A stretch of DNA of 64,000 nucleotides from Achromobacter sp. B7 (GTDB lineage: Bacteria; Pseudomonadota; Gammaproteobacteria; Burkholderiales; Burkholderiaceae_B), in the NCBI RefSeq assembly GCF_003600685.1, contig NZ_CP032084.1, positions 4,402,001 through 4,466,000 on the forward strand. Direction: 5' to 3'. Of the stretch, positions 1,839 to 20,471 are shown one piece after another (the first letter of the stretch is position 1; every line of letters begins with the position of its first letter). The notes beneath the pieces are model-generated. The model ran no database searches, was not told the origin of the DNA, and saw only the letters and a list, made by a program, of their open reading frames with translations. Both the position numbers and the translations under genes were made by a program.

Positions 1839-1852
1839 GCACGTAGCGTGCC
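1839..1852 (-). promoter_or_regulatory. Sigma-54 type -24/-12 element before the 54-aa membrane protein
   Basis: On the minus strand this reads GGCACGCTACGTGC, with GG and GC ten bases apart and a perfect GGCACG half. The -12 half is GTGC instead of TTGC. It ends 51 bases before the ATG at 1788. Confidence 0.5.
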
Positions 1853-1965
1853 CAAGCCGGACCCCGGGGGTCCCGCCACGCTATGCCGTCTAGTGCTGTC
1901 ACACTATTGCAGCTGTCAGGGTCTGCGCTCATACTCGGCGCTCACACAAACATCAAGGTTCCGAG

Positions 1966-2196
1966 ATGGAAAAAGACATCCAAAATCAGGGTGCACAGGC
2001 CGCCCGGAACGGGTGGAGCCTGTTCGATTGCCCCTACCTGCGGGCGCAACAAATGCCCGGCCACACCGGCGAGCCCATCTCCGAATGGCGCGCCAAGGTC
2101 GCCGCCTGGGAAGCCGGCTGGAAGATGGAAGTGGAAAGTTGGCTGGGCCGTTCCCAACCGCCCGCCGTCGTGCGCGACACGCCGGTAATGCACTGA
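1966..2196 (+). CDS. Rmf/CrpP-fold small protein, 76 aa
   Basis: The sequence has the pattern CPYL, then MPGHTGEPISEW, KVAAWEAGW and ME. This is the layout of CrpP-like proteins, which share the ribosome modulation factor fold. Rmf dimerises 70S ribosomes during stationary phase; the CrpP name comes from a plasmid protein reported in fluoroquinolone resistance, but most chromosomal relatives have no tested role. The start at 1966 follows GGTTCCGAG, a weak ribosome site. It lies in a divergent gap with the 54-residue membrane protein. I did not find a convincing promoter. Family assignment is moderately sure; a biochemical function is not. Confidence 0.6.
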   Translation: MEKDIQNQGAQAARNGWSLFDCPYLRAQQMPGHTGEPISEWRAKVAAWEAGWKMEVESWLGRSQPPAVVRDTPVMH

Positions 2197-2229
2197 CGCC
2201 AGCCGCTTTCCCCCGACTATCCGGGGCCG

Positions 2230-2243
2230 GGTTCGGTACTTGC
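2230..2243 (+). promoter_or_regulatory. Possible sigma-54 -24/-12 element before nadE
   Basis: The site reads GGTTCGGTACTTGC, which keeps GG, ten-base spacing, and the full TTGC, but departs from CAC after the GG. It ends 70 bases before the nadE ATG. It is weaker than the others in this block. Confidence 0.35.
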
Positions 2244-2312
2244 TACCGCCCCTCAGGTGCACATGGCGGACGCCGGTCCGCCGCATTCGCAACTGTGGAG
2301 GGAGACCTGATC

Positions 2313-3221
2313 ATGGCTCGGAATACCAACACGCAAGATCGCCAAGCTGCCATTGCGTGTGAACTCGGCGTCCAACAAGGCTTCGACTCGGCCCGCGAGC
2401 TCGAAAGCCGGATCGCATTCCTGGAAAATTATTTGTCAGACACCGGAAAATCCGGCTATGTGCTGGGCATCAGCGGCGGCGTGGATTCGACGGTGGCGGG
2501 AAGAATGGCGCAGTTGGCCACCGAGCGGCTGCGGCTGAAGGGACGCCGCGCATTCTTCGTGGCGGTGCGTTTGCCGTACGGCGAACAGCACGACGAAGAG
2601 GATGCCACGCGCGCGCTGGACTTCATTCGCGCGGACCACGTCATGCAGGTCGATATCAAGCCGGCGGTAAACGCCCAGCGTGACGCGCTGGAAGCAGCGG
2701 GATTGGTATTCACCGACGAGGCAGCGGAAGACTTCGTCGCTGGCAACATCAAGGCGCGTCAACGCATGGTGGCGCAATACGCGATTGCCGGCGCGCTGGA
2801 CTGCCTGGTCATCGGCACCGACCAGGCGGCGGAAGCGCTGATGGGTTTTTTTACCAAGCACGGCGATGGCGCGGCCGACCTGCTGCCGCTACGCGGTCTG
2901 ACCAAGCGGCGCGTGCGCGCGCTGGGCGTGGTGCTGGGTGCACCCGCCAAGCTCATCACCAAGGCCCCCACGGCCGACCTGGAATCGCTGCGGCCGGGCC
3001 TGCCGGACGAGGTGGCGCTGGGCGTCTCGTACGACGAGATCGATGATTTCCTGGAAGGCCGGCCGGTACGCGACGATGCGCGCGAGACGATCCTGAAGCA
3101 ATACGACGCGACCGCGCACAAGCGCTTGCCGGCCGCCGCGCCGCCAGCGCCCGGCACGGACGATCGGGGCAGCGGCAACGACGCCCCCAACGGCAACGGG
3201 CACCCCTCGGCGGCGGCTTAG
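2313..3221 (+). CDS. nadE: Ammonia-dependent NAD(+) synthetase
   Basis: NadE amidates deamido-NAD with ammonia and ATP in the last step of NAD synthesis. The 302-residue protein carries the PP-loop LGISGGVDST near residue 50, then RLPYGEQHDEEDA, IGTDQAAEALMGFFTKHGDG, KAPTADLE and PDEVALGVSYDEIDDFLEG, all typical of the single-domain enzyme. The start at 2313 has GGAG upstream; the frame stays open to 1776 but that part is not conserved-looking. After residue 265 or so there is a proline/glycine/alanine-rich tail that most NadE proteins lack. Its location beside stress genes and a possible sigma-54 site suggests a conditional copy, and many relatives also carry a glutamine-dependent NadE elsewhere; that is inference. 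Confidence 0.93.
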   Translation: MARNTNTQDRQAAIACELGVQQGFDSARELESRIAFLENYLSDTGKSGYVLGISGGVDSTVAGRMAQLATERLRLKGRRAFFVAVRLPYGEQHDEEDATRALDFIRADHVMQVDIKPAVNAQRDALEAAGLVFTDEAAEDFVAGNIKARQRMVAQYAIAGALDCLVIGTDQAAEALMGFFTKHGDGAADLLPLRGLTKRRVRALGVVLGAPAKLITKAPTADLESLRPGLPDEVALGVSYDEIDDFLEGRPVRDDARETILKQYDATAHKRLPAAAPPAPGTDDRGSGNDAPNGNGHPSAAA

Positions 3222-3229
3222 GACTTCCA

Positions 3230-3245
3230 GGCCCCGCGCGGGGCC
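3230..3245. terminator. GC-rich hairpin between convergent nadE and galU
   Basis: A perfect 16-base palindrome (GGCCCCGC then GCGGGGCC) lies between the two converging genes. There is no T-tract, so its role as a terminator is only likely. Confidence 0.4.
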
Positions 3246-3285
3246 AAGGGGCCGCGGGGCAGCCTCTTAGCCCCGCCCCAGCCCA

Positions 3286-4122
3286 TCACCCCACCATGCC
3301 GTGGTACTTGCGCCCGATTTCCATCGTGGCGCGGTAGAACCCTTCCTTGCTGCCGCAGTCGTAGCGCACGCCGTCGTACTCGTAGCCGTACACCTTGCGA
3401 TCCTGCAACAGCGACGCGATGGCGTCGGTCAATTGAATTTCGCCGCCCACGCCCGGCTGCGTGGCCTTGAGCGCGTCAAAGATCTGGGGCTCAAGAATGT
3501 AGCGGCCCACCACCGCGAGCTCGCTGGGCGCGTCTTCGGGCTTGGGCTTTTCCACGATGCCGGACACCTGCACGACGCTTTGCGAGGCCGGCTTGCCGGA
3601 CACGATGCCGTACTGATTGGTCTGGCTGCGCGGCACGTGTTGCACCGCCAGCACGCTGCCTTCGAACTCGCGCGCCACTTTCATCATCTCGCCGATCACC
3701 GGCGTGTCAGCGTCGATCATGTCGTCGGCCAGCAGCACCGCGAACGGCTCGTCGCCCACGATGGCCGCCGCGCACATCACGGCGTGGCCCAGCCCCAGCG
3801 CGGCGGGCTGACGCGTGTAGACGCATTTGACGGAATCGGGAATCACGTTGCGCACGCTGTCCAGCAACGCCACCTTGTTTTTCAACTCCAGGTCGCGTTC
3901 CAATTCAGGCATGCGGTCAAAGTGGTCTTCAATGGCGCGCTTGTTGCGGCCGGTGACGAAGATCAATTCGGTAATGCCCGCCGCCACGGCCTCCTCGACG
4001 GCATATTGGATCAGGGGCCGGTCAACGATGGGGAGCATTTCCTTGGGCATGGCCTTGGTGGCCGGAAGGAAACGCGTGCCCAGGCCGGCAACGGGAAATA
4101 CCGCTTTTCGAATGGGAAGCAT
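3286..4122 (-). CDS. galU: UTP-glucose-1-phosphate uridylyltransferase
   Basis: GalU makes UDP-glucose from UTP and glucose-1-phosphate, feeding surface polysaccharide synthesis. The 278-residue protein has the nucleotidyltransferase signature [20 protein letters not shown] near the N-terminus, [24 protein letters not shown], and the C-terminal [12 protein letters not shown]. Length matches the bacterial family. The start follows a weak GAGAG site. An excellent sigma-54 element lies 50 bases upstream, so the supply of UDP-glucose is probably tied to the same signal as the glycosyltransferase/mutase operon 4 kb away, which would need UDP-galactose derived from it. Confidence 0.95.
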
Positions 4123-4171: not shown

Positions 4172-4185
4172 GCAAAAATCGTGCC
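4172..4185 (-). promoter_or_regulatory. Sigma-54 -24/-12 promoter of galU
   Basis: The minus strand reads GGCACGATTTTTGC, a full match to the GGCACG-N4-TTGC consensus, and is followed by T. It ends 50 bases before the galU start codon. Confidence 0.75.
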
Positions 4186-4216: not shown

Positions 4217-5107
4217 TCAGGTCAATTTGTCGCTGGCGCCCGGCCCCTGACCCAGCTCCGCGCCCGTCTCCGGGTCCGCCGAGGGGTCCGACGCGGTGCG
4301 CGCCACCATGGCTTGCAGCGCCAGCGTTTCTTCTTCCGTCAGCCCAACGCTGGCCATGCCGTCGCCATCGATGGCGCGCTGCTCTTCGCGGGCCGTCACG
4401 TAGGTAAAGTTTTCGTCGCTGTTCCACGAGCCGCGCATATCGCCTTCGCCCTGCGACATGTTGAAGTACACGTTGGCAAAGCGCGGATCGCCCGGCAGCT
4501 TTCCGGGCGGGAAATTGGGCTCCATGGAATACAGCGCCTTTTCAAAGGACCGCTGGTGCGCGACTTCGCGCGTCATCAAAAAGCCCAGGGCTTCCTTGAC
4601 GCCGGGGTCGTCCGTGGCGTTGATCAAGCGTTCGTAGATGATCTTGGCGCGGGCTTCGGCGGCGATGTTCGAGCGCAGGTCGGCGGACGGATCGCCGATG
4701 GTGTCGATATAGCCCGCATTCCACAGCTGGCCGCCCGAGTTGGTCAGCGCCGGCCCGCCGCCGTACAGCACTTGCGTCACGTGCGAATCGTTGCCCGGCC
4801 CGTTCAAGCGCCGGTAGATCTCGGCCTCGGATTCGGTGGCTTCGGCCAGCGCGCCCTTGGCGCCCTTGTTCAGCATGGCCACCATGGTCCCGATCACTTC
4901 CAGATGGCTCAGTTCTTCGGTGGCGATGTCCAGCAGCATGTCTTTGCGGCCAGGATCGTCTTCGGCGATGGCCTGAGTGAAATATCTACACGCCGCCGCC
5001 AGTTCTCCTTGCGGCCCGCCAAATTGTTCCAGCAGCAGGTTCGCCAGACCGGGATTGGTCTGCGAGACGCGGACGGTGTACTGCAATCGTTTGTTGTGAG
5101 CAAACAT
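4217..5107 (-). CDS. Manganese-containing (non-haem) catalase
   Basis: This enzyme disproportionates hydrogen peroxide at a dimanganese centre. The 296-residue protein has the ferritin-like metal ligands in order: [12 protein letters not shown] (first glutamate), [12 protein letters not shown] (glutamate and histidine), then [12 protein letters not shown] and [15 protein letters not shown] for the second half. Length and motifs fit the KatN/YdbD type catalases. A strong AAAGGAG site precedes the ATG. The sigma-54 element at 5160-5173 lies 53 bases upstream. The C-terminal 35 residues are acidic and disordered-looking ([16 protein letters not shown]). Confidence 0.93.
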
Positions 5108-5159: not shown

Positions 5160-5173
5160 GCAACCGCCATGCC
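5160..5173 (-). promoter_or_regulatory. Sigma-54 -24/-12 promoter of the manganese catalase
   Basis: The minus strand reads GGCATGGCGGTTGC with exact ten-base spacing between GG and GC. It lies 53 bases before the catalase ATG and just past the stop of the ABC exporter gene. Confidence 0.7.
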
Positions 5174-5181
5174 GAAACCGC

Positions 5182-7017
5182 CTACGCCTGCTTGAGCTGG
5201 CCTTCGCGCGCGGCGCGCGCATCGTCCAGCGATTCCACCGCCCCGTCATCATGCGGCATCGCGCCCTTGCGGCTGGCTTGCAGGTCCCACAGCGCGCGGA
5301 ACGGCCCACGCGCGCGCAGCAGTTCATCCAGCGTGCCGTCTTCAACGACCGCGCCGTTTTCCAGCACCACGATGCGGTCGTAGCGCGCCAACGAAGACAG
5401 GCGGTGCGCGGCGGCCACCACCGTGCGGCTGCGCATCAGTTCCGCCAGCGCGCGCTGGATCAGCATTTCGGAATGGCTGTCCAGCGCCGAGGTGGCTTCG
5501 TCGAGCAAGAGAATGGGTGCATTTTTTAAAAATGCGCGCGCAATACCGATGCGCTGGCGTTCGCCGCCGGACAACATCGCGCCGCGTTCGCCCACCACGG
5601 TGTCATAGCCCTGCGGCATCTTGCTGATGAACTCGGCGCAATGCGCCTGCGCGGCCGCTTGCAGCACCTCTTCCTCGGACGCATCCGGACGGCCATAGCG
5701 GATGTTCTCCATCACGCTGCGGCGGAACAGGCTGATGTCTTGCGGCACCACCGAGATCGCGTCCTTCAGGCTTTCCAGCGTGGCGTGGCGAATGGGTTGC
5801 CCGCCGATCAAGATGCTGCCGCCGTCCGGTTCGTCGGCCCGTTGCAGCAAGGACAGCAGCGTGGACTTGCCCGCGCCGGAGGCGCCCACCAAGCCGACCT
5901 TCTGCCCGGCCGGTATCGTCAAGGACACGCCCCGCACCGCGCGATTGCCGCCTGGGTAGGTGTAGTGCACGTTGTCGAACACGATGGATGCGGATTCCGG
6001 GCGCAGCGGTCGCGCCCCGGGCAGGTCGGGCACGGCGGGCGGACGCGCCACCACGCGCAGCATTTCGCCGATGACGCCAAACTGCTGCGCGGTGCCGACC
6101 AACGCCAGCGCCAGGTCGCGCGACCCATGCAGGATGCGAAAGGTCAGCGCGCTGACCACCACCACATCGCCCGGCGTGGCGTTGCCGCGTTGCCAGGAAT
6201 GCAGCACCCAGAACAGCATGGCGCTGGCCGCCAGCCACAGGCAGGCATCATGGATCACGCGGGCCTTTTCCACGTACATCCAGCTGCGGCGTTGCGCGCG
6301 GGCTTCTTCGCCCAGCGCCCGCTCCAGCCGCGCGCGCTCACGCGCCTGGGCCGAAAACGCCTGCACCGCCCAGATGTTCGAAATGGCGTCGACGATTTCG
6401 CCGCCGACGTGGGCCGCCTGTTCGCCATAGTGCTGGTGCAGGCCACGCCCCCGGGCGCCAAAGGCGATGATGACCGCGCCCAACACGATCACGAAGCACA
6501 GCAAGGCGGTAGCCATGCGCCAGTCCACCGTCGACAACACCACAATGGCGCCGATGAAGTCCACGCAGGGCGGAATGATGCTCCACACCGCCGCGCCATA
6601 GATCGCGCCCGCCGCCGTGGCGGTGGCGGTGATGCGGTTGGCCAGCGCGCCGGAATGGTGCTGGCGGAAGTAGCGCGTGGAGTGGTGGCTCAGGTGTTCG
6701 AACAGTTCCACCCGCAAGGCCGCGCAGGCCGCCACGATGTTGCGGCAGCCCAGCCAGCCGCCACTGCGCCACAACGCCGCTTCGACGGCGATCAGCGCCA
6801 GGAACACGCCCAGCGGCCACCACACATCACCGGCCGACGCCTGCCCGCCGGCCATGGCGTCCACGATCAGCTTCATGGCGTACTGCACGGCGACCGAGCA
6901 CGTGCCGGCCAACACCACCACGAAGGCCAGCAACCCGAACGCCAGCCGCCGCTGGGCAACGTAGCGCCAGATAAACGCCAACGGTCGGGTGGGCAATGCT
7001 TGTTGATCCGACGACAT
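5182..7017 (-). CDS. ABC exporter, fused permease and ATPase
   Basis: A 611-residue half-transporter of the exporter (MsbA-like) type that would act as a dimer in the inner membrane. The first 320 residues contain about six transmembrane helices. The ATPase domain has Walker A GASGAGKST, the signature LSGGERQRIGIARAF and Walker B ILLLDEATSALD, followed by an H-loop (AAAHRLSSL). The ATG at 7017 is four bases after the stop of the glycosidase gene, so it is the third gene of the operon that begins at 10558. Given the glycosyltransferase and mutase, it may flip or export a galactofuranose-containing glycolipid or oligosaccharide; the substrate is an inference. Confidence 0.88.
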   Translation of the reverse strand: MSSDQQALPTRPLAFIWRYVAQRRLAFGLLAFVVVLAGTCSVAVQYAMKLIVDAMAGGQASAGDVWWPLGVFLALIAVEAALWRSGGWLGCRNIVAACAALRVELFEHLSHHSTRYFRQHHSGALANRITATATAAGAIYGAAVWSIIPPCVDFIGAIVVLSTVDWRMATALLCFVIVLGAVIIAFGARGRGLHQHYGEQAAHVGGEIVDAISNIWAVQAFSAQARERARLERALGEEARAQRRSWMYVEKARVIHDACLWLAASAMLFWVLHSWQRGNATPGDVVVVSALTFRILHGSRDLALALVGTAQQFGVIGEMLRVVARPPAVPDLPGARPLRPESASIVFDNVHYTYPGGNRAVRGVSLTIPAGQKVGLVGASGAGKSTLLSLLQRADEPDGGSILIGGQPIRHATLESLKDAISVVPQDISLFRRSVMENIRYGRPDASEEEVLQAAAQAHCAEFISKMPQGYDTVVGERGAMLSGGERQRIGIARAFLKNAPILLLDEATSALDSHSEMLIQRALAELMRSRTVVAAAHRLSSLARYDRIVVLENGAVVEDGTLDELLRARGPFRALWDLQASRKGAMPHDDGAVESLDDARAAREGQLKQA

Positions 7018-7020: not shown

Positions 7021-8166
7021 TCAACCCCCTAGTGCAACGGCGCGCGGCGCGTCCAGCAAGCCGGCCGGGCCATCACCAAAGCGCGCTGCCTGTTTACGCA
7101 GCTCGACTTCCAACGGCGCGTAGACCGCGCGTTGGCCTGTGTCCGACGGCGCGCTGAGCAAGCCGGTCGAACAGTAGCGGTTGTCTTCCCACCCGGGGTA
7201 GTCCGTGACCGGGTACAGGCAGATGCCCGCCACATCCACTCCCGCGCCGCGCGCGAGCAGCGCCTGGTCCGCCACGTAGCGCAGCCACGGCGCGCGCGCC
7301 GCGCCTTCCGCGCCCGTCTCTGCGATCAGGATCGGACGGCCATGGCGCTGCGCCTGCTCTGCCAGCAACTCCCCCAGCGGCCGGTAGCGCGGGTCGTCAT
7401 GGCGCAACTGCGGGCCGCAATGCAGCCACTGGTTGTGCGGGTAGTAATTGACGCCCACGATATCCAGGTAGCGCTCGTCACCGCCCAATTCCGGCTGCGT
7501 GCGGCCGGTGATCATGTCCACCGCTTCGAACTGCGAGGCGTTGGCGGCGGCGGCCGGGCCGTCGTCACCGGGTTGCCACGGATGCACCGCAATCATCGGC
7601 TCGGCGGCCAAAAAACGCGCGCCGGGATCGATCTCGCGAATGGCGTCGGCCGCCTGCACAAAGGCCCGCACCAGCTGCCGCTTAAGCTCGCCTCCCCGCC
7701 CGGTGCCGCATGGGCTGAAGTGCGCCATGTCGCCGCCTGCCCAGCTCCAGTACGAAATCTCGTTGATCGGGCAAAACCAGGTCGGCAGCTCCGACTCTTG
7801 TGCGATCAGGCGCGCGACGGCGGCGGCATAGCGCGCAAACGCCTCGGGAAAGCGGCTGGACCAGATGTCGATCCACTGGGGCCAGCCAAAGTGGCATAAA
7901 TCCCAGATGACCTGCATGCCGGTCGCGCGCGCCGCCCGCAACATGGGCAGCACGCTGGACCAGTCGTAGGCATAGGGCGCCGGGTTGACCAGGTGCCAGC
8001 GCACGCCGTCGCGCGCGGTGCGCAGCCCCAGCGACACGGCGTGGGCATAGTCCGACTCGGCCCATTGGGCGTGGCCGGTGGACGCCAGCAGATCCAGCTG
8101 GCGTCCGTCGGGAAAGCGGTGGCATGAACATTCGAAACCCGCCAGGAAAGCACTTTGAAAATGCAT
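7021..8166 (-). CDS. Glycoside hydrolase family 1-like protein
   Basis: The 381-residue protein looks like a TIM-barrel glycosidase related to beta-glucosidases. It shows GLRTARDGVRW near the start, PINEISYWSWAGG with the expected acid/base glutamate near residue 160, and AETGAEG near residue 310 with a probable nucleophile glutamate. It is shorter than classical family 1 enzymes (about 450). There is no signal peptide, so it is cytoplasmic. The start at 8166 is 13 bases after the stop of the upstream gene. In this operon it may act as a trimming enzyme or a transglycosidase on the same glycan; that is inference. Confidence 0.75.
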   Translation of the reverse strand: MHFQSAFLAGFECSCHRFPDGRQLDLLASTGHAQWAESDYAHAVSLGLRTARDGVRWHLVNPAPYAYDWSSVLPMLRAARATGMQVIWDLCHFGWPQWIDIWSSRFPEAFARYAAAVARLIAQESELPTWFCPINEISYWSWAGGDMAHFSPCGTGRGGELKRQLVRAFVQAADAIREIDPGARFLAAEPMIAVHPWQPGDDGPAAAANASQFEAVDMITGRTQPELGGDERYLDIVGVNYYPHNQWLHCGPQLRHDDPRYRPLGELLAEQAQRHGRPILIAETGAEGAARAPWLRYVADQALLARGAGVDVAGICLYPVTDYPGWEDNRYCSTGLLSAPSDTGQRAVYAPLEVELRKQAARFGDGPAGLLDAPRAVALGG

Positions 8167-12509: not shown

Positions 12510-12523
12510 GGCACGGCACTTGC
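12510..12523 (+). promoter_or_regulatory. Sigma-54 -24/-12 element before the 72-aa membrane protein
   Basis: The site reads GGCACGGCACTTGC followed by T, a full consensus match. The next start codon is 95 bases downstream at 12618, a slightly longer leader than for the other sites. Confidence 0.7.
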
Positions 12524-12617: not shown

Positions 12618-12836
12618 ATGGCCTCCCCCACCTTGCCCTCCGTGCCGCAAGCCGCCCCGCTGCCGCTGGCCGGCGCCGCGACCTCGCTTCCGATCACGCC
12701 CGCGACTCGTTTGCCGCTTGCCGGTCCCGCAACCGGCTTCCGGCTGTCGCTAGGTATTTTGTTGGCCATCGTGTTCTGGATGGTGGCCGGCTCGCTCCTG
12801 GTGACGCTTTGGCTGGCGTCGCAGCGGCTGGCGTAG
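12618..12836 (+). CDS. Small single-pass membrane protein, 72 aa
   Basis: The first 40 residues are rich in proline, alanine and leucine with a repeated LPLAGPAT/LPLAGAAT element. One transmembrane helix follows (SLGILLAIVFWMVAGSLLVTLWLA). The start at 12618 has AGGA at suitable spacing. It is alone between the DUF2243 operon and the convergent copper protein. The function is unknown. The sigma-54 element at 12510 supports expression. Confidence 0.6.
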   Translation: MASPTLPSVPQAAPLPLAGAATSLPITPATRLPLAGPATGFRLSLGILLAIVFWMVAGSLLVTLWLASQRLA

Positions 12837-12874: not shown

Positions 12875-13207
12875 TCAGGCCGCCATCTTTTTGCAGCTGT
12901 CGGCGCAGCGCCGGCAGGCTGCAACGCAGTCGTCCATGCCACCGACGCCTTCGCAGCTGTCCGCGCAAGCGGCGCATATTTCGGCGCACGCGCCGCAAAC
13001 GCGATCGTGTTGTTCGATGCCAATCAGCATCGTGTGCGCGGCCGTACGGCAGATTTCTGCGCAGGCCATCATCAGGCGGAAGTGTTCGGGTTCGACATGT
13101 TCGCCGCCCGCCTCCAGGCAGTGGTTGGACGCGGTTTGCAGGCAGTGCCGATAGCAGGCCAGGCAGTTGTCGATGCAGGCTTCCATTTCTTTGTTCACGG
13201 CGGTCAT
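12875..13207 (-). CDS. Four-helix bundle copper-binding protein (DUF326/Csp type)
   Basis: The 110-residue protein has repeated cysteine pairs along helices: CIDNCLACYRHC, CAEICRTAA, CGACAEICAACADSC, CVAACRRCADSC. This is the pattern of the cytosolic copper-storage Csp and related four-helix cysteine bundles that bind many Cu(I) ions. There is no signal peptide, which fits the cytoplasmic subtype. The start at 13207 has AAGGAG seven bases upstream. The gene is monocistronic and has a -24/-12 candidate at 13255-13268. It may buffer copper during the stress response controlled by this block. Confidence 0.85.
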   Translation of the reverse strand: MTAVNKEMEACIDNCLACYRHCLQTASNHCLEAGGEHVEPEHFRLMMACAEICRTAAHTMLIGIEQHDRVCGACAEICAACADSCEGVGGMDDCVAACRRCADSCKKMAA

Positions 13208-13254: not shown

Positions 13255-13268
13255 GCAAATCGCATTCC
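13255..13268 (-). promoter_or_regulatory. Probable sigma-54 -24/-12 element before the copper protein
   Basis: The minus strand reads GGAATGCGATTTGC, with correct spacing and a complete TTGC, 48 bases before the ATG. The -24 half is GGAATG, the same variant seen at 14951-14964. Confidence 0.5.
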
Positions 13269-13288: not shown

Positions 13289-14296
13289 TCAAGCGATGTC
13301 GGTCTTCGCCAAGGGGCCGTCGGTGGTCGCGGCCAGGCTGCGTAGTTGCTGGTAGGCCGCTTCCCATTGCGCCACCGACGCCCGCAACCGGCCCGTGGCG
13401 TCGGCCGTTGCCCCGCCCGTAGCGATTTCTTCACTGGCCAGCAAAATACGCTCGCGCAGCAGGCGGGCGGCGGACCAGATGGCATCGTCAACCTGCTCGG
13501 CCTGCGCGGCGTTCAGCGAGGCGGAGGAGAATGCGTGACCGGTGTGGCACCGATACCGGACGGGCACGCCCGTGTCCACGCGCCAGATTGCGCCGCCACA
13601 TTCCGGGCAGGTCAGGCCTACCTGCCGCCCGATGCGTTCGAGCACGGCCGCCGAGGACTGGCCCGTTTCCGTCATGCGCGACTCGGTGCGCAGCGTTTCG
13701 GACGGCCCGCTGCCCGCTGCGCGAGGCGCCACTGCTGTGTTGATCGCTTTAGCCATCGCATTTCCAATTTGTTGAAGCGGCAGCACCTGCGCCGTGGGCA
13801 CGGCCGCGATCGCGTTGGCAGGCATATCCTGCGCCACGCTGTCCTCCGGGTCCTGCACGATGGCAAAACCGCCACACGCGTGCACCGATTTCAGCCCGGC
13901 CGAGCCATCGTCCAGGCGCCCGGTCAGGACGATGCCCACGACGCGCGGCCCGTAATGCACGGCGGCTGAACGAAACAACGGGTCCGCCGCCGGCCGCGTG
14001 AAGTTTTCCTTCGGGCCACGCGTCAACACTGTGGCGTCATGCTGCAAAATCATGTGCCGGTCGGGCGGCGCGATATAGACGACGCCGGGCGCGAAGGGCT
14101 GGCCATCCTCGGCATGTTGCACCTGCCAGCGCGTACGGTTTTGCAGCAGGCTGGGCAGGACGCTGCGGTAGCCGTCCACATGCATCGCCACGAACACCGA
14201 TGCGCGCAGGCCTGGGTCCAGATCGCCCAACAAGACCTCCAGCGCGGCCAGGCCGCCCGTGGAGACCGCCACCACCACGATGTCTCGGTTTTGCAT
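13289..14296 (-). CDS. Stand-alone CheB-type protein-glutamate methylesterase
   Basis: A 335-residue protein with a CheB esterase domain at residues 1-190 and no receiver domain. The catalytic triad is visible: serine in VSTGGLAALE, histidine in AMHVDGYRSVLPSLL, aspartate in GRLDDGSAGLKSVHACGG. The C-terminal 100 residues hold a CPECGG/YRCHTGHAFS zinc-ribbon-like segment, as in the YcsA-like CheB proteins of Alphaproteobacteria and Betaproteobacteria. It lies 38 bases after the 128-residue exported protein and is probably the third gene of that operon. No methyl-accepting receptor is nearby, so its target may be a sensor kinase rather than chemotaxis. Confidence 0.88.
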   Translation of the reverse strand: MQNRDIVVVAVSTGGLAALEVLLGDLDPGLRASVFVAMHVDGYRSVLPSLLQNRTRWQVQHAEDGQPFAPGVVYIAPPDRHMILQHDATVLTRGPKENFTRPAADPLFRSAAVHYGPRVVGIVLTGRLDDGSAGLKSVHACGGFAIVQDPEDSVAQDMPANAIAAVPTAQVLPLQQIGNAMAKAINTAVAPRAAGSGPSETLRTESRMTETGQSSAAVLERIGRQVGLTCPECGGAIWRVDTGVPVRYRCHTGHAFSSASLNAAQAEQVDDAIWSAARLLRERILLASEEIATGGATADATGRLRASVAQWEAAYQQLRSLAATTDGPLAKTDIA

Positions 14297-14334
14297 GATG
14301 CGCCGCCTTTGCTTTACATGGCGTCCGGCCTTTT

Positions 14335-14721
14335 TCAGCGGCCGAACATGTTGGTCTTGTGTCCGCCCGAGCCCGCCTTGCCGCCGGGAATCTGCCCGTC
14401 GGGCGCCGGGTTGGCCGATGAGCCCTTGACCGTGCCCTGCCCCTGCACCGGCTGCGACGGCGTGGTGCCCGGCGCGGCCTGCGGCACGGTGGGCGGCGGG
14501 CGCGACGGATCGCCTTTGGATGGTGCCGGTGCGCCGCTGTCCGGCGCGGGCCCCTGGGGCGCCGGCGTGCCGGCAGGCGGCGGGCCACCCTGCCCCGCCG
14601 GCCCCGCCGGGCCACCGGCCGATTGCGCGAAGGTCAACGGCGCCCAGGCCAGGCCCGCCGCCAAAGCGAGGGCAAGCGCTGAGCGGCGAGCGCCATGCAA
14701 ACTATGCCCAGGATGTGTCAT
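14335..14721 (-). CDS. Exported proline/glycine-rich protein, 128 aa
   Basis: A signal peptide covers about residues 1-33 (RRSALALALAAGLAWAPLTFAQ), with cleavage likely after AFAQ-type residues. The mature part is almost entirely proline, glycine, alanine and polar residues (GGPPPAGTPAPQGPAPDSG), so it is disordered and periplasmic or cell-wall associated. The start at 14721 has AAAGGAG upstream. It lies 13 bases after the 59-residue gene and before cheB. No family is recognised. Confidence 0.7.
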   Translation of the reverse strand: MTHPGHSLHGARRSALALALAAGLAWAPLTFAQSAGGPAGPAGQGGPPPAGTPAPQGPAPDSGAPAPSKGDPSRPPPTVPQAAPGTTPSQPVQGQGTVKGSSANPAPDGQIPGGKAGSGGHKTNMFGR

Positions 14722-14734
14722 GGCGTGTTCTCCT

Positions 14735-14914
14735 TTAAGGCTTGCTACGCGAACCGGCGCCGCGATTGCGCTGGCTCTGCTGATCCTGGCCGGTGCCGAT
14801 CTGCGTGACATGGCCTTCTTTCTTGCTGCGGTTCTGCGTGTCGCGGTGGCTGGCCTGCGCTTCGCGCGGGGTGTCGTCGGCGGTGGGGTTGGGCTTGTTG
14901 TCTTTGGATTTCAT
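14735..14914 (-). CDS. Small highly charged protein, 59 aa
   Basis: The protein is made nearly only of charged and polar residues (MKSKDNKPNPTADDTPRE; later RNRGAGSRSKP), so it is probably disordered. An AAGGA ribosome site precedes the ATG at 14914. It is the first gene of the operon with the exported protein and the solo CheB. A -24/-12 candidate lies 37 bases upstream. It resembles small stress-induced hydrophilic proteins in composition only. Confidence 0.6.
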   Translation of the reverse strand: MKSKDNKPNPTADDTPREAQASHRDTQNRSKKEGHVTQIGTGQDQQSQRNRGAGSRSKP

Positions 14915-14950: not shown

Positions 14951-14964
14951 GCAAGCTGCATTCC
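14951..14964 (-). promoter_or_regulatory. Probable sigma-54 -24/-12 element before the 59-aa/128-aa/CheB operon
   Basis: The minus strand reads GGAATGCAGCTTGC, with ten-base spacing and TTGC. It ends 37 bases before the ATG at 14914. The -24 half has the same GGAATG variant as the copper gene. Confidence 0.5.
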
Positions 14965-15113: not shown

Positions 15114-18100
15114 ATGACCCTTTCCAGTGCCGCTTTTGTTGTGGGTATCGGTGCTTCCGCCGGCGGCGTGGAGGCCCTGGAAGGTTTCTTTGCGGGCATT
15201 CCCAAAGAGCCCGACATGTCGTTCATCGTGGTGACGCATCTGGGCCCGGGCCGCGAAAGCCATCTGCCGGAGGTCATCGGCCGCCACACGTCGTTGCCGG
15301 TCAACACCGCGGAAAACGACATGGCGATCGAGATGAACCAGGTCTATGTACTGGGGGCGGACGCCGACATCTCGATCAGCCAGGGCCGCATCAAGCTTGC
15401 CGCCACGTCCGGCCAGCGCGCCGGGCGGCGCCCCATCGATCAGTTCTTCATGTCGCTGGCACGCGATTATGGCCAACGCGCGGTGGGCATTGTGCTGTCC
15501 GGCAGCGATTCCGACGGCACCCTGGGCTTGAAGACCATCAAGGAATATGGCGGCATCACCATGGCCCAGGCCCCGAATGGCAACGGGCCGGCCTATGCCG
15601 AAATGCCCGACAGCGCCATCGGCGCCGGCATCATCGACTTTGCGCTGCCCGCAGTCGAAATGGGCACGCGCCTGCACATGCTTGACGCCGCGCCGACCTC
15701 CCCGATCGGCCTGTTAAGCGCCGACGAAGACGAAGCCATGCTCCCCGAAATGGAAAGGATCAAGTCGGACATCTATGCGATTTTGCTGACCCGCACGGGC
15801 CATGATTTCAGCGGTTACAAAAGCAAGACCTTCATGCGTCGCGTGCATCGCCGCATGAAGGTAAACCAGTCGGACTCGCTGGAGGCCTACCTGGCGTACC
15901 TGCGGCAAACGCCCCAGGAAGCCGGCGCGCTGTTTCGTGACCTGTTGATCAGCGTGACCGACTTCTTCCGCGACCCCGAGGCGTTCGAGGCGCTGGCCAA
16001 GCTGGTGGTGCCGCAGCTGCTGGAAGGGCGCAGCGTTGGCGATACCGTCAGGGTGTGGGTGCCTGGCTGTGCCACCGGCGAAGAAGTCTATTCGCTTGCC
16101 ATCCTGCTGCGCGAGCACATGGACAAGATGGATACGCCTCCGCGCGTGCAGCTGTTCGCCACCGACATCGACGAGCGGGCGCTGAATATTGCGCGCACGG
16201 CCCGCTATCCGGGCACGCTGCTGGACAGCGTCAGCCCGGAACGCCGCGAGCGGTTCTTCATTGCCGATGGCGAAAGTTATCTGGTCAGCAAGCAGATCCG
16301 CGAACTGTGCATTTTTTCGCCGCACAGCGTTTTGCGCGACCCGCCCTTTTCGCGCATCGACCTGGTGTCGTGCCGCAATCTGTTGATCTATTTCGGCGGC
16401 ACCATTCAGAAGCAGGTGTTCCCGACGTTCCATTACGCGCTGCGCAGCGGCGGCTATCTGTTCCTGGGCATGTCGGAAAACACGACGCAGTTCTCCGATA
16501 TGTTCGGCCCCGTGGACAAAAAGCATCGGATTTTCCAGCGGCGCAGCGACATCGCCGTACGCCCGCGACCGCATTTCAACCTGCCATCGGCGGGGATGCC
16601 GTCGTCGCAGGACCTTCTGCATCGGCGCCTGCCGGCCAGTGCCACGGGGCTGCGCCAATCCATCGATTCGCAGGTGCTGAACCAGCATGCGCCGCCCCAC
16701 GTACTGGTCAACAAAGATGGCGACGTGGTGTATTACTCGGGCCGCACGGGCAAGTACCTGGAGGCGGCGGCGGGCGTGCCGACGCGCCAGATCCTGGCGC
16801 TGGCGCGCAAGGACCTGCGCCTGGACCTGCGCGCGCTGCTCAACGACGCCATGTCCACCGGCGTGACGGCCACGCGGCATAACGTGGCCATCGAAGGCGA
16901 CGACGGCCGCGTGCAGCTGCTGCGCCTGACGGTGGACCCGTTGCTGGAGAACCGCGAAGGCGAACCGCTGTACCTGGTGCTGTTCGCCGACGACGGCCCG
17001 CCCGTCAGCCGCGAAGAGGCCGACGCCTATCTGCACGCCGCGCACATCGGCGCGGCCGAACAGATTGAAAGCGAGCTGCGCGAAACGCGCGACCGCCTGC
17101 AATCGACCATCGAGGAATACGAAACCGCGCTGGAAGAATTGAAGTCATCCAACGAAGAGCTGGTCTCGGTCAACGAAGAGTTGCAATCGTCCAACGAAGA
17201 GCTGGAAGCGTCCAAGGAAGAACTGGTGTCGCTCAACGAAGAGCTGCACACCGTGAATGCCGAATTGCAAGGCAAGGTCGACGAGCTGGACCGCAGCAAC
17301 AGCGACCTGCACAACCTGTTTGCCAGCACCGCGTTCGCCACGCTGTTCCTGGACGGCAACCTGGTGATCCGCAGCTTCACGCCGCCCGTGTCAGACGTGT
17401 TCCGCATCTTGCCCAGCGACCGGGGTCGGCCCATTACCGACCTGGCCAGCCGCGTCCCGTTGCCCTCGTTCGCGCAAGACATCCAGCAGGTGTTTCGAAC
17501 CCAGGAAGTGATCGAGCGCCGCATTGAAGGCGATGGCGACGCCAAGCACTACCTGCTGCGGCTGGCGCCTTACCGCGATGCCAACAACCGCGTGGACGGC
17601 GTGGTCGTCACCTTCATCGACATCACGCAGATCACGCAGGCCGAAAAGCGGCATCGCATCCTGATTGCCGAGCTGCAACACCGCACCCGCAACCTGCTGG
17701 CGCTGGTGCAGAGCATTGCGTATCGCACCCTGGGGCGTGGCGAGCCCTATGACCGGCTGGACAGCCGGCTGTCGGCGCTGAGCCGGGTGCAGGGCCTGCT
17801 AAGCGATGCGTCGCACGAGGCCGTGGATTTTGGCGAGATCGTGCGCCGCGAGCTGGACGCCGTGGGGCACGGGCAGCACGTGTCGGTGCAAGGCGAGCCC
17901 ACGTTCGTCAGCGCGGAATGCAGCCAGTCACTGGCATTGGCGCTGCACGAACTGGGCACCAACGCGCTCAAGCATGGCGCCTTGAAATACTCCAGTGGGC
18001 AGTTGCAGGTGCAATGGCACACGCGGCCACAGGGCGACGGGCAGACGCTGGTTGTGGAATGGCACGAGTCCGGCCTGCCCACGCCGCCTGATACGCGCCG

Positions 18101-18248
18101 CAAGGGCTATGGGCGCGAGCTTATCGAACAGGCACTGACGTTCACCCTGCAAGCGCGCACGTCGCTGGATTTCAGGGAAGATGGCCTGCGCTGCCGTATT
18201 GAAGTTCCATTACGACCGTCGACCAACTTTAAGATCGCGGCCAAGTAA
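15114..18248 (+). CDS. CheB-CheR-PAS-HWE sensor histidine kinase
   Basis: A 1044-residue cytoplasmic multi-domain sensor. Residues 5-190 are a CheB esterase with all catalytic residues (GASAGGVEAL, THLGPGRESHL, SGSDSDGTLGLK). Residues 210-480 are a CheR methyltransferase (FFRDPEAFEAL, WVPGCATGEEVYS). A PAS-like domain follows near 510-630, then a coiled coil of SSNEEL/SLNEEL repeats (about 650-730), a second PAS domain (735-850), and an HWE/HisKA_2 kinase (AELQHRTRNLLALVQSIAY; N-box ALHELGTNALKHG). The next gene, 10 bases on, is its likely receiver partner. I saw no sigma-54 site here. The combination is known in Proteobacteria, but its signal is not. Confidence 0.93.
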   Translation: MTLSSAAFVVGIGASAGGVEALEGFFAGIPKEPDMSFIVVTHLGPGRESHLPEVIGRHTSLPVNTAENDMAIEMNQVYVLGADADISISQGRIKLAATSGQRAGRRPIDQFFMSLARDYGQRAVGIVLSGSDSDGTLGLKTIKEYGGITMAQAPNGNGPAYAEMPDSAIGAGIIDFALPAVEMGTRLHMLDAAPTSPIGLLSADEDEAMLPEMERIKSDIYAILLTRTGHDFSGYKSKTFMRRVHRRMKVNQSDSLEAYLAYLRQTPQEAGALFRDLLISVTDFFRDPEAFEALAKLVVPQLLEGRSVGDTVRVWVPGCATGEEVYSLAILLREHMDKMDTPPRVQLFATDIDERALNIARTARYPGTLLDSVSPERRERFFIADGESYLVSKQIRELCIFSPHSVLRDPPFSRIDLVSCRNLLIYFGGTIQKQVFPTFHYALRSGGYLFLGMSENTTQFSDMFGPVDKKHRIFQRRSDIAVRPRPHFNLPSAGMPSSQDLLHRRLPASATGLRQSIDSQVLNQHAPPHVLVNKDGDVVYYSGRTGKYLEAAAGVPTRQILALARKDLRLDLRALLNDAMSTGVTATRHNVAIEGDDGRVQLLRLTVDPLLENREGEPLYLVLFADDGPPVSREEADAYLHAAHIGAAEQIESELRETRDRLQSTIEEYETALEELKSSNEELVSVNEELQSSNEELEASKEELVSLNEELHTVNAELQGKVDELDRSNSDLHNLFASTAFATLFLDGNLVIRSFTPPVSDVFRILPSDRGRPITDLASRVPLPSFAQDIQQVFRTQEVIERRIEGDGDAKHYLLRLAPYRDANNRVDGVVVTFIDITQITQAEKRHRILIAELQHRTRNLLALVQSIAYRTLGRGEPYDRLDSRLSALSRVQGLLSDASHEAVDFGEIVRRELDAVGHGQHVSVQGEPTFVSAECSQSLALALHELGTNALKHGALKYSSGQLQVQWHTRPQGDGQTLVVEWHESGLPTPPDTRRKGYGRELIEQALTFTLQARTSLDFREDGLRCRIEVPLRPSTNFKIAAK

Positions 18249-18258
18249 AAGGATCACC

Positions 18259-18636
18259 ATGACTGAAACTCTCCCACTGTCGGCTTGCAAGTTGCTGATC
18301 GTTGAAGACGAATACGTCATTGCGGAAACGCTGGCGGAAGCGCTGCGCGAAGTGGGCGCCGAGATCGTCGGCATGATCGGATGGCTGGACGAGGCGACGC
18401 GCTTTGCCGACACACACGCCGGGCAATTCAATTGCGCGGTGGTTGACATCAATTTGCACGGCACGCTGTCTTATCCGCTGATCGATGCGTTGACGGCGCA
18501 GGGCGTGCATGTGGTGCTGCTGACGGGGTTTGGCGTCGAGGCCCTGGAAGCGTGCTATCGCGAATTTCCCCGTTGCGAAAAGCCCTTCAACCAGGCCAGA
18601 TTGATATCGATGCTGCTGTCCCGGTTCGGCCAGTAG
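18259..18636 (+). CDS. Single-domain response regulator
   Basis: A 125-residue receiver with LLIVEDEYVIAETL (acidic pocket), the phospho-acceptor aspartate in CAVVDINLHG, threonine in VVLLTGFG and lysine in RCEKPFN. It has no output domain. It follows the HWE kinase by 10 bases with an AGGA ribosome site, and receivers of this kind are usual partners of HWE kinases. It may pass phosphate on, or act as a sink. Confidence 0.9.
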   Translation: MTETLPLSACKLLIVEDEYVIAETLAEALREVGAEIVGMIGWLDEATRFADTHAGQFNCAVVDINLHGTLSYPLIDALTAQGVHVVLLTGFGVEALEACYREFPRCEKPFNQARLISMLLSRFGQ

Positions 18637-18655
18637 CCTGGCGCCGCCGCACGGC

Positions 18656-18669
18656 GGCACAACATTTGC
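18656..18669 (+). promoter_or_regulatory. Sigma-54 -24/-12 promoter of the MscS channel gene
   Basis: The site reads GGCACAACATTTGC followed by T, with correct spacing and full GGCAC and TTGC halves. It ends 33 bases before the ATG at 18703. Confidence 0.75.
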
Positions 18670-18702
18670 TGCCCACCGCGAGTCCAACCTTGCGGAGGCG
18701 GT

Positions 18703-19902
18703 ATGTTGAGTCAATGGATTTCCGGAACGCGCGCGCTCGCGGACCATCCCATCGCCCTGTGGCTGATCGCGGCGGCGGTCGCGGCCACCCTGTATTTGAT
18801 ATTGATCTTTGCGTTCCGCCTCGTGCGCACGCGGCTGGAGCGGCGCGCGGCGCAGCCCGGGCACGGCATGGCGGCGGGCGCGATCCGCGTCATGCAGCGC
18901 ACCAGCTGGATCCTGCTGGCCATCTTCGCCTTGCTGATCGGCATCGACGTGGCGGGCGCGCCGTTCCCCTGGAGCGAAGGCGGTGCACAACATTTGTGGT
19001 TTGTGCTGATCGCGCTGCAACTGGCGCTATGGCTGGACCGCGCGGTGGACGTGGGCTTGAGCCACGCCCTGCACAACCGGGGCACCGTGACCGCAACCTT
19101 GCTGAGTTTTCTGCTGCGGGCGCTGGTGTGGGTGATCGCGCTGCTGGCCATGCTGGACAACCTGGGCGTGAACATCACCGCGCTGGTCGCCAGCCTGGGG
19201 ATCGGTGGCGTGGCCGTGGCCTTGGCGGTGCAGACCATCTTGAGCGACCTGTTCGCGTCGATCTCCATCGGGTTGGACAAGCCCTTTGAAGCCGGCGACT
19301 TCATTGTGTTCGGGCAGGTGGCCGGCAGCATCGAGCACGTGGGGCTGAAAACCACGCGCATTCGCAGCCTGGGCGGCGAGCAGATCGTCTGCTCGAATAC
19401 CGAGCTGCTCAAACAGACCATCCAAAACTACAAACGGATGCAACAACGGCGCATCGTGTTTTCAGTGCGCATTACGTACAAAACCGACGTGGAAAAAGTG
19501 GCCGCCGTGCCGGGCATTATTCGTTCGCAGATCGAGGGCCAGAGCGACACGCGCTTTGACCGCGCGCATCTGGCCCGATTTGGCGAGGGCGCGCTGGAGT
19601 TCGAGGCGGTCTATTACGTGCTGACGGCGGATTACAACCACTACATGGACATCCAGCAGGCGATCAACCTGGGGATCATGCGGCAGTTGCAGGCGGCGGG
19701 CATCGCGCTGGCATTGCCGGAACAGATCTTGCATATGCCGCGGGATGCGGCGGATGCGGCGCCGGCGGCGGAAGACGCGGCAGGGAATACGGCCGGGAAT
19801 GCGGCGGGGAATGCGGCGGGATCCTCGCCCGGCAAGGGCGTTGGGTCGGCGGGGGGACGCAACCCGGGGGGGAGTGCGCCGCCCGCGCCGCTACCGGCCT
19901 AG
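18703..19902 (+). CDS. MscS-family mechanosensitive ion channel
   Basis: The 399-residue protein has four probable transmembrane helices in residues 15-185 and the MscS pore and beta domain: VNITALVASLGIGGVAVALAVQ, SDLFASISIGLDKPFEAGDFI, GSIEHVGLKTTRIRSLGGEQ. Channels of this family open on membrane tension and release solutes in hypo-osmotic shock. The last 50 residues are an alanine/glycine/proline tail (NTAGNAAGNAAG) that is probably disordered. GGAGG precedes the ATG at 18703. Its stop codon is the first TAG of the 8-base repeat array that follows. Confidence 0.92.
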   Translation: MLSQWISGTRALADHPIALWLIAAAVAATLYLILIFAFRLVRTRLERRAAQPGHGMAAGAIRVMQRTSWILLAIFALLIGIDVAGAPFPWSEGGAQHLWFVLIALQLALWLDRAVDVGLSHALHNRGTVTATLLSFLLRALVWVIALLAMLDNLGVNITALVASLGIGGVAVALAVQTILSDLFASISIGLDKPFEAGDFIVFGQVAGSIEHVGLKTTRIRSLGGEQIVCSNTELLKQTIQNYKRMQQRRIVFSVRITYKTDVEKVAAVPGIIRSQIEGQSDTRFDRAHLARFGEGALEFEAVYYVLTADYNHYMDIQQAINLGIMRQLQAAGIALALPEQILHMPRDAADAAPAAEDAAGNTAGNAAGNAAGSSPGKGVGSAGGRNPGGSAPPAPLPA

Positions 19903-20059
19903 CGGCGTAGCGGCGTAGCGGCTTAGCGGCGTAGCGGCTTAGCGGCGTAGCGGCTTAGCGGCGTAGCGGCTTAGCGGCGTAGCGGCTTAGCGGCGTAGCG
20001 GCTTAGCGGCGTAGCGGCTTAGCGGCGTAGCGGCTTAGCGGCGTAGCGGCTTAGCGGCC
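19900..20059. repeat. Twenty tandem 8-base units TAGCGGCK
   Basis: From the stop codon of the mscS-like gene, 20 consecutive 8-base units run without a gap. All are TAGCGGC plus one base; after the first two the last base alternates G and T, giving a 16-base higher-order unit, and the final unit ends in C. Because 8 is not a multiple of 3, the TAG codons fall in all three forward frames. Confidence 0.95.
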
Positions 20060-20069
20060 TGGCGGCCGG

Positions 20070-20089
20070 GCCGGGCGGAAACGCCCGGC
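20070..20089. terminator. Hairpin with GAAA loop after the repeat array
   Basis: An 8-base perfect stem (GCCGGGCG and CGCCCGGC) closes a GAAA tetraloop. It lies between the mscS-like gene and the convergent 84-residue gene. There is no T-tract. Confidence 0.5.
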
Positions 20090-20099
20090 ATCCCGGCCA

Positions 20100-20354
20100 T
20101 TACAGGCCGCGCGTGCTGCGCAGCCATTGCTGGTCGGCGATATTGGCGTCACCCAAGCGGTCGATACCGGGGGTCTGCTGCGGGTCCAGGCCCGGCATCG
20201 GATTGGGCAGGGCATCGGGCGGCCAGCGCCCGTCCTTGTCCCGTTCCTGGCCCGGCGCGCGGCGGTCCGGATTCTCGGCCGGGGATTGGTCGGGCTGGCC
20301 CTGGTTGGGCTGCGGCGAGGTCGGCTTTTGCTGCAGCGTCGACGGGATGTTCAT
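20100..20354 (-). CDS. Small disordered hydrophilic protein, 84 aa
   Basis: Rich in proline, glutamine, aspartate and arginine (LQQKPTSPQPNQGQPDQSP), with a slightly more hydrophobic end (GIDRLGDANIADQQWLRSTRGL) that could be a binding motif. AGGAG lies six bases before the ATG at 20354. The promoter candidate is the sigma-54 site at 20431-20444. I do not recognise a family. Confidence 0.6.
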   Translation of the reverse strand: MNIPSTLQQKPTSPQPNQGQPDQSPAENPDRRAPGQERDKDGRWPPDALPNPMPGLDPQQTPGIDRLGDANIADQQWLRSTRGL

Positions 20355-20430
20355 GGCAGGCTCCTGGCGTTGGTGGGGCAACGGCCCCCATTGATGGGAT
20401 GACGGAATGTCGGGATAACGCCATGCCGGA

Positions 20431-20444
20431 GCAACTGCCATGCC
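20431..20444 (-). promoter_or_regulatory. Sigma-54 -24/-12 element before the 84-aa gene
   Basis: The minus strand reads GGCATGGCAGTTGC, differing by one base from the catalase site. It ends 76 bases before the ATG at 20354. The divergent element for cinA starts only 14 bases away. Confidence 0.65.
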
Positions 20445-20457
20445 CGCAGCGCCGCCG

Positions 20458-20471
20458 GGAACGCGGTTTGC
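20458..20471 (+). promoter_or_regulatory. Sigma-54 -24/-12 element before the CinA-family gene
   Basis: The site reads GGAACGCGGTTTGC followed by T, with correct spacing and a full TTGC. It ends 62 bases before the ATG at 20534. Confidence 0.55.

Follow-up and report, generated by a model that had tools for sequence, protein, structure and literature searches.

A cluster of sigma-54-type promoters before stress and surface genes in Achromobacter sp. B7 and its probable link to a second RpoN

Promoter elements of the window

The window analysed here is a 64,000-base stretch (G000:C1:4402001-4466000) of the 6,236,552-base single-contig genome of Achromobacter sp. B7, in which a block of stress and surface genes carries elements of the sigma-54 (-24/-12) promoter type. 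Eight exact matches to GGCAY-N5-TTGC, hereafter strict elements, occur on the two strands of the window, seven of them within positions 4172-20444 and the eighth, at 53884, inside a gene. All seven elements of the block are intergenic, share the strand of the gene that follows and precede its start by 34-95 bases; GGCAC/T and TTGC boxes at fixed spacing, oriented to the downstream gene, are what is expected of sigma-54 promoters. A preliminary description of this DNA had listed these elements with several weaker ones and had called the five GGCAC-N5-TTGC elements correctly placed and oriented; each was found where it had been put, the weaker ones in the form described, and the placement and orientation were borne out for all seven strict elements.

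On the minus strand, GGCACGATTTTTGC (4172..4185) lies 50 bases before galU, encoding UTP-glucose-1-phosphate uridylyltransferase (3286..4122; TIGR01099 above cut-off), and GGCATGGCGGTTGC (5160..5173) lies 53 bases before a manganese catalase gene (4217..5107; PF05067). A third minus-strand element, GGCACGCCAATTGC (10611..10624), heads an operon formed by a 792-residue fusion of a glycosyltransferase and a UDP-galactopyranose mutase (GT-GLF; 8180..10558; PF13692, PF03275), a 381-residue protein that is glycoside hydrolase-like by eye with no family match (7021..8166) and, in the same run, an ABC exporter (5182..7017; PF00664, PF00005). The GT-GLF start was taken as 10558, which aligns with the homologue in the relative G038 and places the element at 53 bases; the automatic start gave 194. 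The divergent partner of this promoter, again GGCACGCCAATTGC (10734..10747, plus strand), lies 41 bases before an operon (10788..12332, plus) of an 88-residue protein, a 155-residue protein and a DUF2243 membrane protein, of which the third matches PF10002 and the others no family. Three further elements precede single genes: GGCACGGCACTTGC (12510..12523, plus) at 95 bases from a 72-residue membrane protein without family (12618..12836, plus), GGCACAACATTTGC (18656..18669, plus) at 34 bases from an MscS-family mechanosensitive channel (18703..19902, plus; PF00924, PF21082, PF21088), and GGCATGGCAGTTGC (20431..20444, minus) at 77 bases from an 84-residue protein without family (20100..20354, minus).

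The weaker elements deviate in the first box. GGAACGCGGTTTGC (GGAAC; 20458..20471, plus) precedes a CinA C-terminal-type gene (20534..21064, plus; PF02464), GGAATGCAGCTTGC (GGAAT; 14951..14964, minus) lies 37 bases before genes for a 59-residue protein, a 128-residue protein and a CheB methylesterase (13289..14914, minus; PF01339 for the third), and GGAATGCGATTTGC (GGAAT; 13255..13268, minus) lies 48 bases before a 110-residue Cys-rich protein (12875..13207, minus), by eye of the four-helix copper-binding type and with no family match. Two poor elements, GGCACGCTACGTGC (GGCAC-N5-GTGC; 1839..1852, minus) before a 53-54-residue protein and GGTTCGGTACTTGC (GGTTC, read by eye; 2230..2243, plus) before nadE, are unsupported. 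A CheB-CheR-PAS-HWE histidine kinase and a single-domain response regulator (15114..18636, plus; PF01339, PF01739, PF07536; PF00072 for the regulator below cut-off, at 27.3 of 30.2 bits) complete the block; the kinase has no strict element of its own, nor has either of its two homologues.

Counted over the whole window, GGCAY-N5-TTGC is seen 8 times against 3.1 expected from dinucleotide shuffles, 3 of 100 of which reach 8, and GGCAC-N5-TTGC is seen 5 times against a mean of 1.92. Since 7 of 100 shuffles reach 5, this raw count is modest, and we rejected it as sufficient proof by itself; the earlier estimate of less than one GGCAC-N5-TTGC in the window holds for single-base composition (0.81 per 64 kb) and fails for dinucleotides. 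With one mismatch allowed the window shows no excess (57 seen, 66.5 expected).

Spacing and placement set the elements apart more clearly. Between 1 and 22 kb of the window, all 7 matches with the N5 spacer are promoter-like, against 1 of 6 for N2, N3, N4, N6, N7 and N8 pooled; the corresponding figures are 17 of 20 against 3 of 46 at 2.88-3.06 Mb, 50 of 57 against 6 of 40 in the loci of nine relatives around rpoN2 (a second sigma-54 gene, described below), and 3 of 10 against 0 of 71 in 320 kb of background sequence. The reversed pattern is promoter-like in 1 of 7 cases in the background and in 0 of 4 in the block, rpoN2-region and relatives' sets together. Seven promoter-like elements in 22 kb against three in the background give a Poisson probability of 3e-9, which becomes 7e-7 after 284 windows and 1e-3 if the background rate is set at its upper 95% bound. 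Genome-wide, GGCACG-N4-TTGC occurs 73 times and its reversed pattern 14 times, and four such sites within 8.4 kb anywhere have p = 0.0026 (53 sites, with the rpoN2 cluster left out and one repetitive gene collapsed). The density is not equal everywhere in the genome, in keeping with the preliminary description. We regard as confirmed, at the level of sequence, a real cluster of sigma-54-type promoters before stress and surface genes in the window.

Conservation in relatives

Homologous loci were compared in eight relatives, chosen for holding the manganese catalase or the GT-GLF fusion, and the element was sought 15-150 bases upstream. Genes with a strict element in Achromobacter sp. B7 have one in 15 of 20 homologues, compared with 1 of 29 homologues of neighbouring genes that lack it here and 3 of 13 in the weak-element group of the preliminary description; the sole exception among the 29 is the 155-residue gene of G038, where the preceding 88-residue gene was not found. 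The reversed pattern is absent from all 62 of these upstream regions.

The galU element is strict in four of five homologues examined, at 50-62 bases, and its spacer bases vary by species while the boxes stay constant (GGCACGATTTTTGC, GGCACGGGGCTTGC, GGCACAGAATTTGC, GGCACGCGAATTGC). The manganese catalase element is found at 45-53 bases in six of the nine genus genomes with the gene, our own included; the remaining three have no strict element within 150 bases. The GT-GLF operon keeps its element in 3/3 homologues, and the 72-residue membrane protein and the 84-residue protein keep theirs in the one homologue of each. The MscS element recurs in G020 with identical sequence and distance, and stands also in G038 before a gene cut off by the end of the fetched locus, while the element at 10734 is present in G038, before the 155-residue gene, and absent in G020. 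Three of the weaker elements gain from the comparison, being strict in a relative: that of CinA (GGCACGCCAGTTGC in G020, none in G006; 1/2), that of the 59-residue/CheB genes (GGCATGCAGCTTGC in G038, none strict in G020; 1/2) and that of the copper-type protein (1/4, in G020). Those proposed for the 54-residue protein (0/2) and nadE (0/3) have no strict counterpart and gain no support.

The preliminary description had said that the block looks like one regulon. While the promoter cluster before its stress and surface genes holds, the block is not a self-contained unit: its membership varies within the genus (manganese catalase in 9 of 43 genomes, full-length GT-GLF fusion in 4 of 43), so that the modules appear to own their element and not to share a block control. 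In three of the six catalase loci with an element no other block gene was seen in the 20 kb fetched, save a copper-protein homologue (55-59%) in two of the three. A plasmid search with the block matched 99 records, none over most of it, and among the ten matches listed coverage is 3-5%.

A second rpoN and its activators

No sigma-54 activator lies in the window, as the preliminary description had said; in a genome scan with PF00158 the nearest lie ~415 kb to its left and 629 kb to its right. An activator near the block, which the preliminary description had advised seeking beyond base 1, was therefore rejected; two activators lie beside a second rpoN gene, 1.48 Mb away.

The genome holds two rpoN genes, at ~140 kb and 2.92 Mb. 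The second, rpoN2 (G000:C1:2922747-2924201), encodes a protein with 38-41% identity to RpoN1 that contains PF00309, PF04963 and PF04552, scores above the TIGR02395 cut-off and carries an RpoN box, ARRTVSKYRG. It follows, on the same strand, the gene of a putative enhancer-binding protein, EBP1 (333 residues; AAA+ and helix-turn-helix domains, no sensor domain), from which EBP2 (460 residues; NtrC-type, with response regulator, AAA+ and helix-turn-helix domains) is divergent. Both contain PF00158 and PF02954, the domains of bacterial enhancer-binding proteins, and the loop of both reads GSFTGA. Among the nine strong PF00158 activators of the genome (four more matches are weak) this loop is limited to EBP1 and EBP2, the rest reading GAFTGA (4), GAYTGA (2) or GAFSGA (1), and it is invariant in 11 of 11 aligned EBP1 sequences. 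EBP1 resembles PspF of the phage-shock response in joining AAA+ and helix-turn-helix domains without a sensor, but it is not PspF, at 251 bits against a cut-off of 443.55 (TIGR02974) and 207 against 529 (NF008622). A PAS hybrid histidine kinase is encoded near rpoN2 (2920001-2921935), and another hybrid kinase at the left end of the window.

All 41 rpoN2 orthologues tested have a strict element 34-100 bases upstream; 30 are from the genus (the loci returned by the search, also used for Ku below) and 11 from outside; the same upstream regions contain the reversed pattern in none and an opposite-strand match in one. Around the gene, 17 promoter-like strict elements occur at 2.918-3.027 Mb, out of 20 hits in the 180 kb examined. 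Behind them, directly or in the same run, are rpoN2 itself, CsbD, topoisomerase IB, Ku-LigD with a ligase and an Lhr-type helicase, BON, UDG, DUF421, cytochrome c, PRC-barrel, a thiamine-diphosphate enzyme and glycogen synthase; several precede small proteins without family, one is 13 bases upstream of a VgrG-like gene (2917893), and two promoters stand back to back 40 bases apart (2932767/2932808).

Elsewhere in the genome, a glycosyltransferase gene 8 kb left of the window sits behind an element, and elements of the background sample precede a DUF892-like gene (below the Pfam cut-off) and a Phage_holin_3_6 gene. Forty of the 73 GGCACG-N4-TTGC sites are promoter-like, the two blocks accounting for 19, and the 51 sites read outside both blocks divide into 20 promoter-like, 28 coding and 3 other. 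The promoter-like ones precede, among others, glnA- and dctA-like genes (these and similar names were assigned by eye on the N-termini) and the gene of a BrkB-type membrane protein, so that sigma-54 sites are not confined to stress genes.

Upstream of the rpoN2 element itself, a TTAC-N9-GTAA palindrome lies at 52-65 bases in 10 of 10 genus loci (in L017 at about 4321-4337); the other 67 promoters examined lack it even when one mismatch is allowed. Its 10 occurrences in 77 proved to be one orthologous site and not a shared one, and we regard it as a candidate control site. Two other motifs were set aside. AGGCTT with a gap of 5 and up to two mismatches, the only seed below 1e-4, occurs in 6 of 26 own promoters and 3 of 281 background regions, but was dropped because relatives do not share it (1/51); C as the second spacer base, a possible difference of the block from other promoters (14/19 against 5/21 elsewhere, p = 0.004; 19/36 elements in the rpoN2 loci of relatives) was a position chosen post hoc and is too weak.

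Distribution of the system

Presence and absence are given here among the matches listed. rpoN2 and EBP1 are found in 41 of 43 genus genomes and in neither G007 nor G033 (57% complete); the 41 genomes have two or three rpoN matches each, and G007 and G033 have one, of RpoN1 type. Outside the genus, 15 genomes gave an RpoN2 match below 1e-130, of which 11 were fetched. At all 9 genus loci the 20 kb fetched contain rpoN2, EBP1 and EBP2 together, as they do at 7 of the 11 loci from other genera, a separate EBP1 not being found within 20 kb in the other four; Achromobacter aloeverae, Caballeronia sordidicola and Burkholderiaceae bacterium 26 also have loci with the trio. Our gene calls come from a custom codon model that misses genes in some other genera, and element counts at those loci are lower bounds because many elements have no called gene.

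The complete genome G007, of the same genus, thus keeps its RpoN1-type gene and has no rpoN2 or EBP1 orthologue; neither Ku nor manganese catalase gave a match in it. Its GGCACG-N4-TTGC density, 3.5 per Mb, is the lowest of 41 genomes at least 90% complete, the median of the others being 7.3 (G028 and G033, at 8.4 and 5.4, were excluded as incomplete). Its 23 sites comprise 11 promoter-like, 7 coding and 5 other, and several of the 11 precede glnA, dctA, transport or uptake genes by eye.

None of the 43 genus genomes, two of them less than 80% complete, has an RpoS above the TIGR02394 cut-off of 378.7 bits. The best matches, at 281-292 bits in 42 genomes, lie in open frames of 647-879 codons and are most readily taken as RpoD; of the 14 control genomes one, presumably E. 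coli, exceeds the cut-off.

An rpoN2 homologue (46-48% identical) is carried by plasmids of 880 and 744 kb in Burkholderia pyrrocinia and B. multivorans, where PRC-barrel, PfpI-type and treY genes are annotated around it. The B. pyrrocinia locus adds treZ, treS, glgB, glgX and an activator pair, and that of B. multivorans adds Ku, LigD, two DUF892, BON, UdgX and DUF4142; judged by the annotated genes, promoter-like positions are taken by 5 of 7 and by 10 of 11 strict hits in the two loci, and the reversed pattern gives no hits. Near this activator pair in Caballeronia and Paraburkholderia, a gene of the trehalose-phosphate synthase type (GT20) has an element upstream. In a tree these RpoN2 proteins group with those of the family and separately from the RpoN1 of Achromobacter sp. 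B7; the RpoN2 group is weakly supported (81/53), and the RpoN1 and single-rpoN rows have long branches.

Discussion

In our interpretation, which we hold to be probable, the elements would be -24/-12 promoters of RpoN2, and RpoN2, EBP1 and EBP2 would form a self-amplifying stress regulon. The window block would be an outlying, modular part of a larger set centred on rpoN2 and its two activators, 1.48 Mb away. Under starvation or stress a kinase, for which the PAS hybrid kinase near rpoN2 and the hybrid kinase at the left end of the window are candidates, would phosphorylate EBP2; EBP1 and EBP2, perhaps as mixed hexamers, would open RpoN2-polymerase at the elements. rpoN2, started by RpoN1 as reported in R. 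solanacearum, would be amplified from its own promoter, and since it has such a promoter the response would amplify itself. The genes transcribed would serve to remove peroxide, to join DNA ends and repair DNA, to protect the envelope and guard against osmotic stress, and to make surface polysaccharide and storage carbohydrate, a content typical of general stress responses, here in a genus where no RpoS was detected. With no shared enhancer, and with back-to-back promoters 40 bases apart, one may speculate that the activators act from degenerate sites or from solution. It is by inference that we assign the promoters to RpoN2 and not to RpoN1, give the two activators their roles, and ascribe to the system its signal and its function in stress.

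The housekeeping RpoN1 with another activator might instead use these promoters, RpoN2 being redundant and the clustering of elements reflecting that of genes, although this seems to us unlikely. RpoN1 recognises the same consensus and is not the missing part in G007 and G033, which each keep one RpoN1-type gene among the matches listed. In R. solanacearum, according to the available part of PMC4371752, the known phenotypes belong to rpoN1 and not to rpoN2, whose expression requires RpoN1, so that RpoN1 could serve some of the promoters. Motif density across other genera of the family is, moreover, not tied to rpoN2 (median 6.8 per Mb in 14 genomes with it and 5.9 in 15 without, p = 0.29; G048, of 0.8 Mb and with no match to either, was dropped). 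Against use by RpoN1, the largest cluster of elements surrounds rpoN2 and two activators with a private motif, and in G007, which retains an RpoN1-type gene, the 11 promoter-like sites stand, by eye, before glnA, dctA and transport genes and not before the stress set.

Several other observations also weigh against a regulon of RpoN2. G007 is a single natural case; it is second lowest by the ratio to the reversed control (1.92; G022 1.85), and its promoter-like fraction does not differ from our own (11/23 against 40/73, p = 0.64), just the number and the genes differing. G001 has rpoN2 yet no Ku match. Because the fractions do not differ and G001 lacks Ku despite rpoN2, we take G007 as suggestive and not as proof. 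Strict elements stand within 200 bases upstream of Ku at just 11 of 30 loci (at ~30, 82 or 118 bases), nine further loci having GGAAY-N5-TTGC at 29-31 bases and ten neither; no strict element directly precedes rpoN2 in the two Burkholderia loci; and no upstream activator palindrome shared by the 26 own promoters was found in a comparison with 281 background upstream regions. Opposite-strand matches at 4/20, 1/29 and 1/13 homologue upstream regions are expected of divergent promoters and are not independent.

It is very improbable that the elements are not promoters at all, being another regulator's conserved binding site or a sequence tied to coding or composition. While the raw count of GGCAC elements, 5 against 1.9 expected, would permit this, it sits poorly with the exact 14-base geometry, the intergenic placement, strand and start distance, the conservation with free spacer bases, and reversed controls near zero (0/62, 0/41 and 0/30; 1/7 promoter-like in the 320-kb background). 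More plausible, if still improbable, is a real RpoN2 regulon that serves an envelope and exopolysaccharide programme and not a general stress response. galU, GT-GLF, MscS, DUF421 and the glycosyltransferase left of the window fit such a programme, as does the view of sigma-54 as a controller of the bacterial exterior set out in the available text of PMC3162934, with which our set shares surface genes under sigma-54 and from which it differs in the second sigma factor and in the central place of DNA repair and peroxide genes. Ku, LigD, topoisomerase IB, UDG, the Lhr-type helicase, CsbD, catalase and the trehalose/glycogen genes have functions unrelated to the envelope.

General stress responses are usually ascribed to sigma-70-family factors, such as sigma-S, sigma-B and EcfG, which need no ATPase and whose responses include catalase, Ku/LigD, CsbD, trehalose or glycogen genes and small stress proteins. 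The gene content described here is similar, but with sigma-54 and AAA+ activators. On balance we lean towards a broader proposal, in which RpoN2 and the two GSFTGA activators of Burkholderiales would be a dedicated, self-amplifying sigma-54 general stress system that stands in for sigma-S/EcfG in the genus of the window, where RpoS was not detected, and in which GSFTGA may separate it from RpoN1/GAFTGA circuits. If so, a similar gene set would depend on a mechanistically unrelated polymerase switch, unable to fire without an ATPase, and a general stress response would be gated by ATP-driven activators, where others use proteolysis or anti-sigma factors; the uncharacterised small proteins listed here would form a predicted regulon. 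The proposal might also bear on stress traits reportedly linked to a Burkholderia megaplasmid; a 2014 paper concerns, by its title, plasmid pC3 and stress tolerance.

The closest known systems are found in related genera. In R. solanacearum, the available part of PMC4676750 describes Rsp1667 and Rsp1668 as GSFTGA activators, with Rsp1671 (RpoN2) among possible targets, and reports no metabolic role for rpoN2; according to that of PMC4371752, minimal medium induces rpoN2, which depends on rpoN1; no phenotype is specific to it, and 'its role remains enigmatic'. That system is alike in its second rpoN, non-redundant with RpoN1, its two GSFTGA activators and the place of rpoN2 among predicted sigma-54 targets, and may be a counterpart of ours; it differs in that, as far as these texts go, no regulon or function is assigned there, whereas we propose a set of stress genes whose promoters are conserved, which would give RpoN2 a testable role. 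In Burkholderia, by the available part of PMC4745423, RpoN2 is needed for full katE expression and a putative RpoN box precedes the gene; a second sigma-54 likewise serves a catalase, but the regulon is not defined in that text and RpoS is discussed in the same organism. No such regulon is mentioned in the available parts of PMC3162934, PMC12316311, PMC11722255, PMC4552427, PMC5552954 and PMC5773237, or in the reference list of PMC5357869, and none of the open-licence literature matches listed concerns a sigma-54 general stress regulon in this group.

Minor observations

Two tandem repeats were seen by eye in the block, one of ~15-16 bases (GGAAGGTGCTCCCGGG) at 12385-12500, directly upstream of the 12510 element, and one of GGCTTAGCGGCGTAGC units at 19903-20060, right after mscS. 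The repetitive gene collapsed to one in the cluster statistic is a coding region at G000:C1:1962002-1967998 (L258) with five copies of GGCACGCTGGTTGC, 639 bases apart with one step double. At two further loci, L265 (3430646) and L272 (4132012), GGCACG-N4-TTGC lies 229-234 bases upstream of genes with near-identical N-termini, which are presumably associated with a type VI secretion system.

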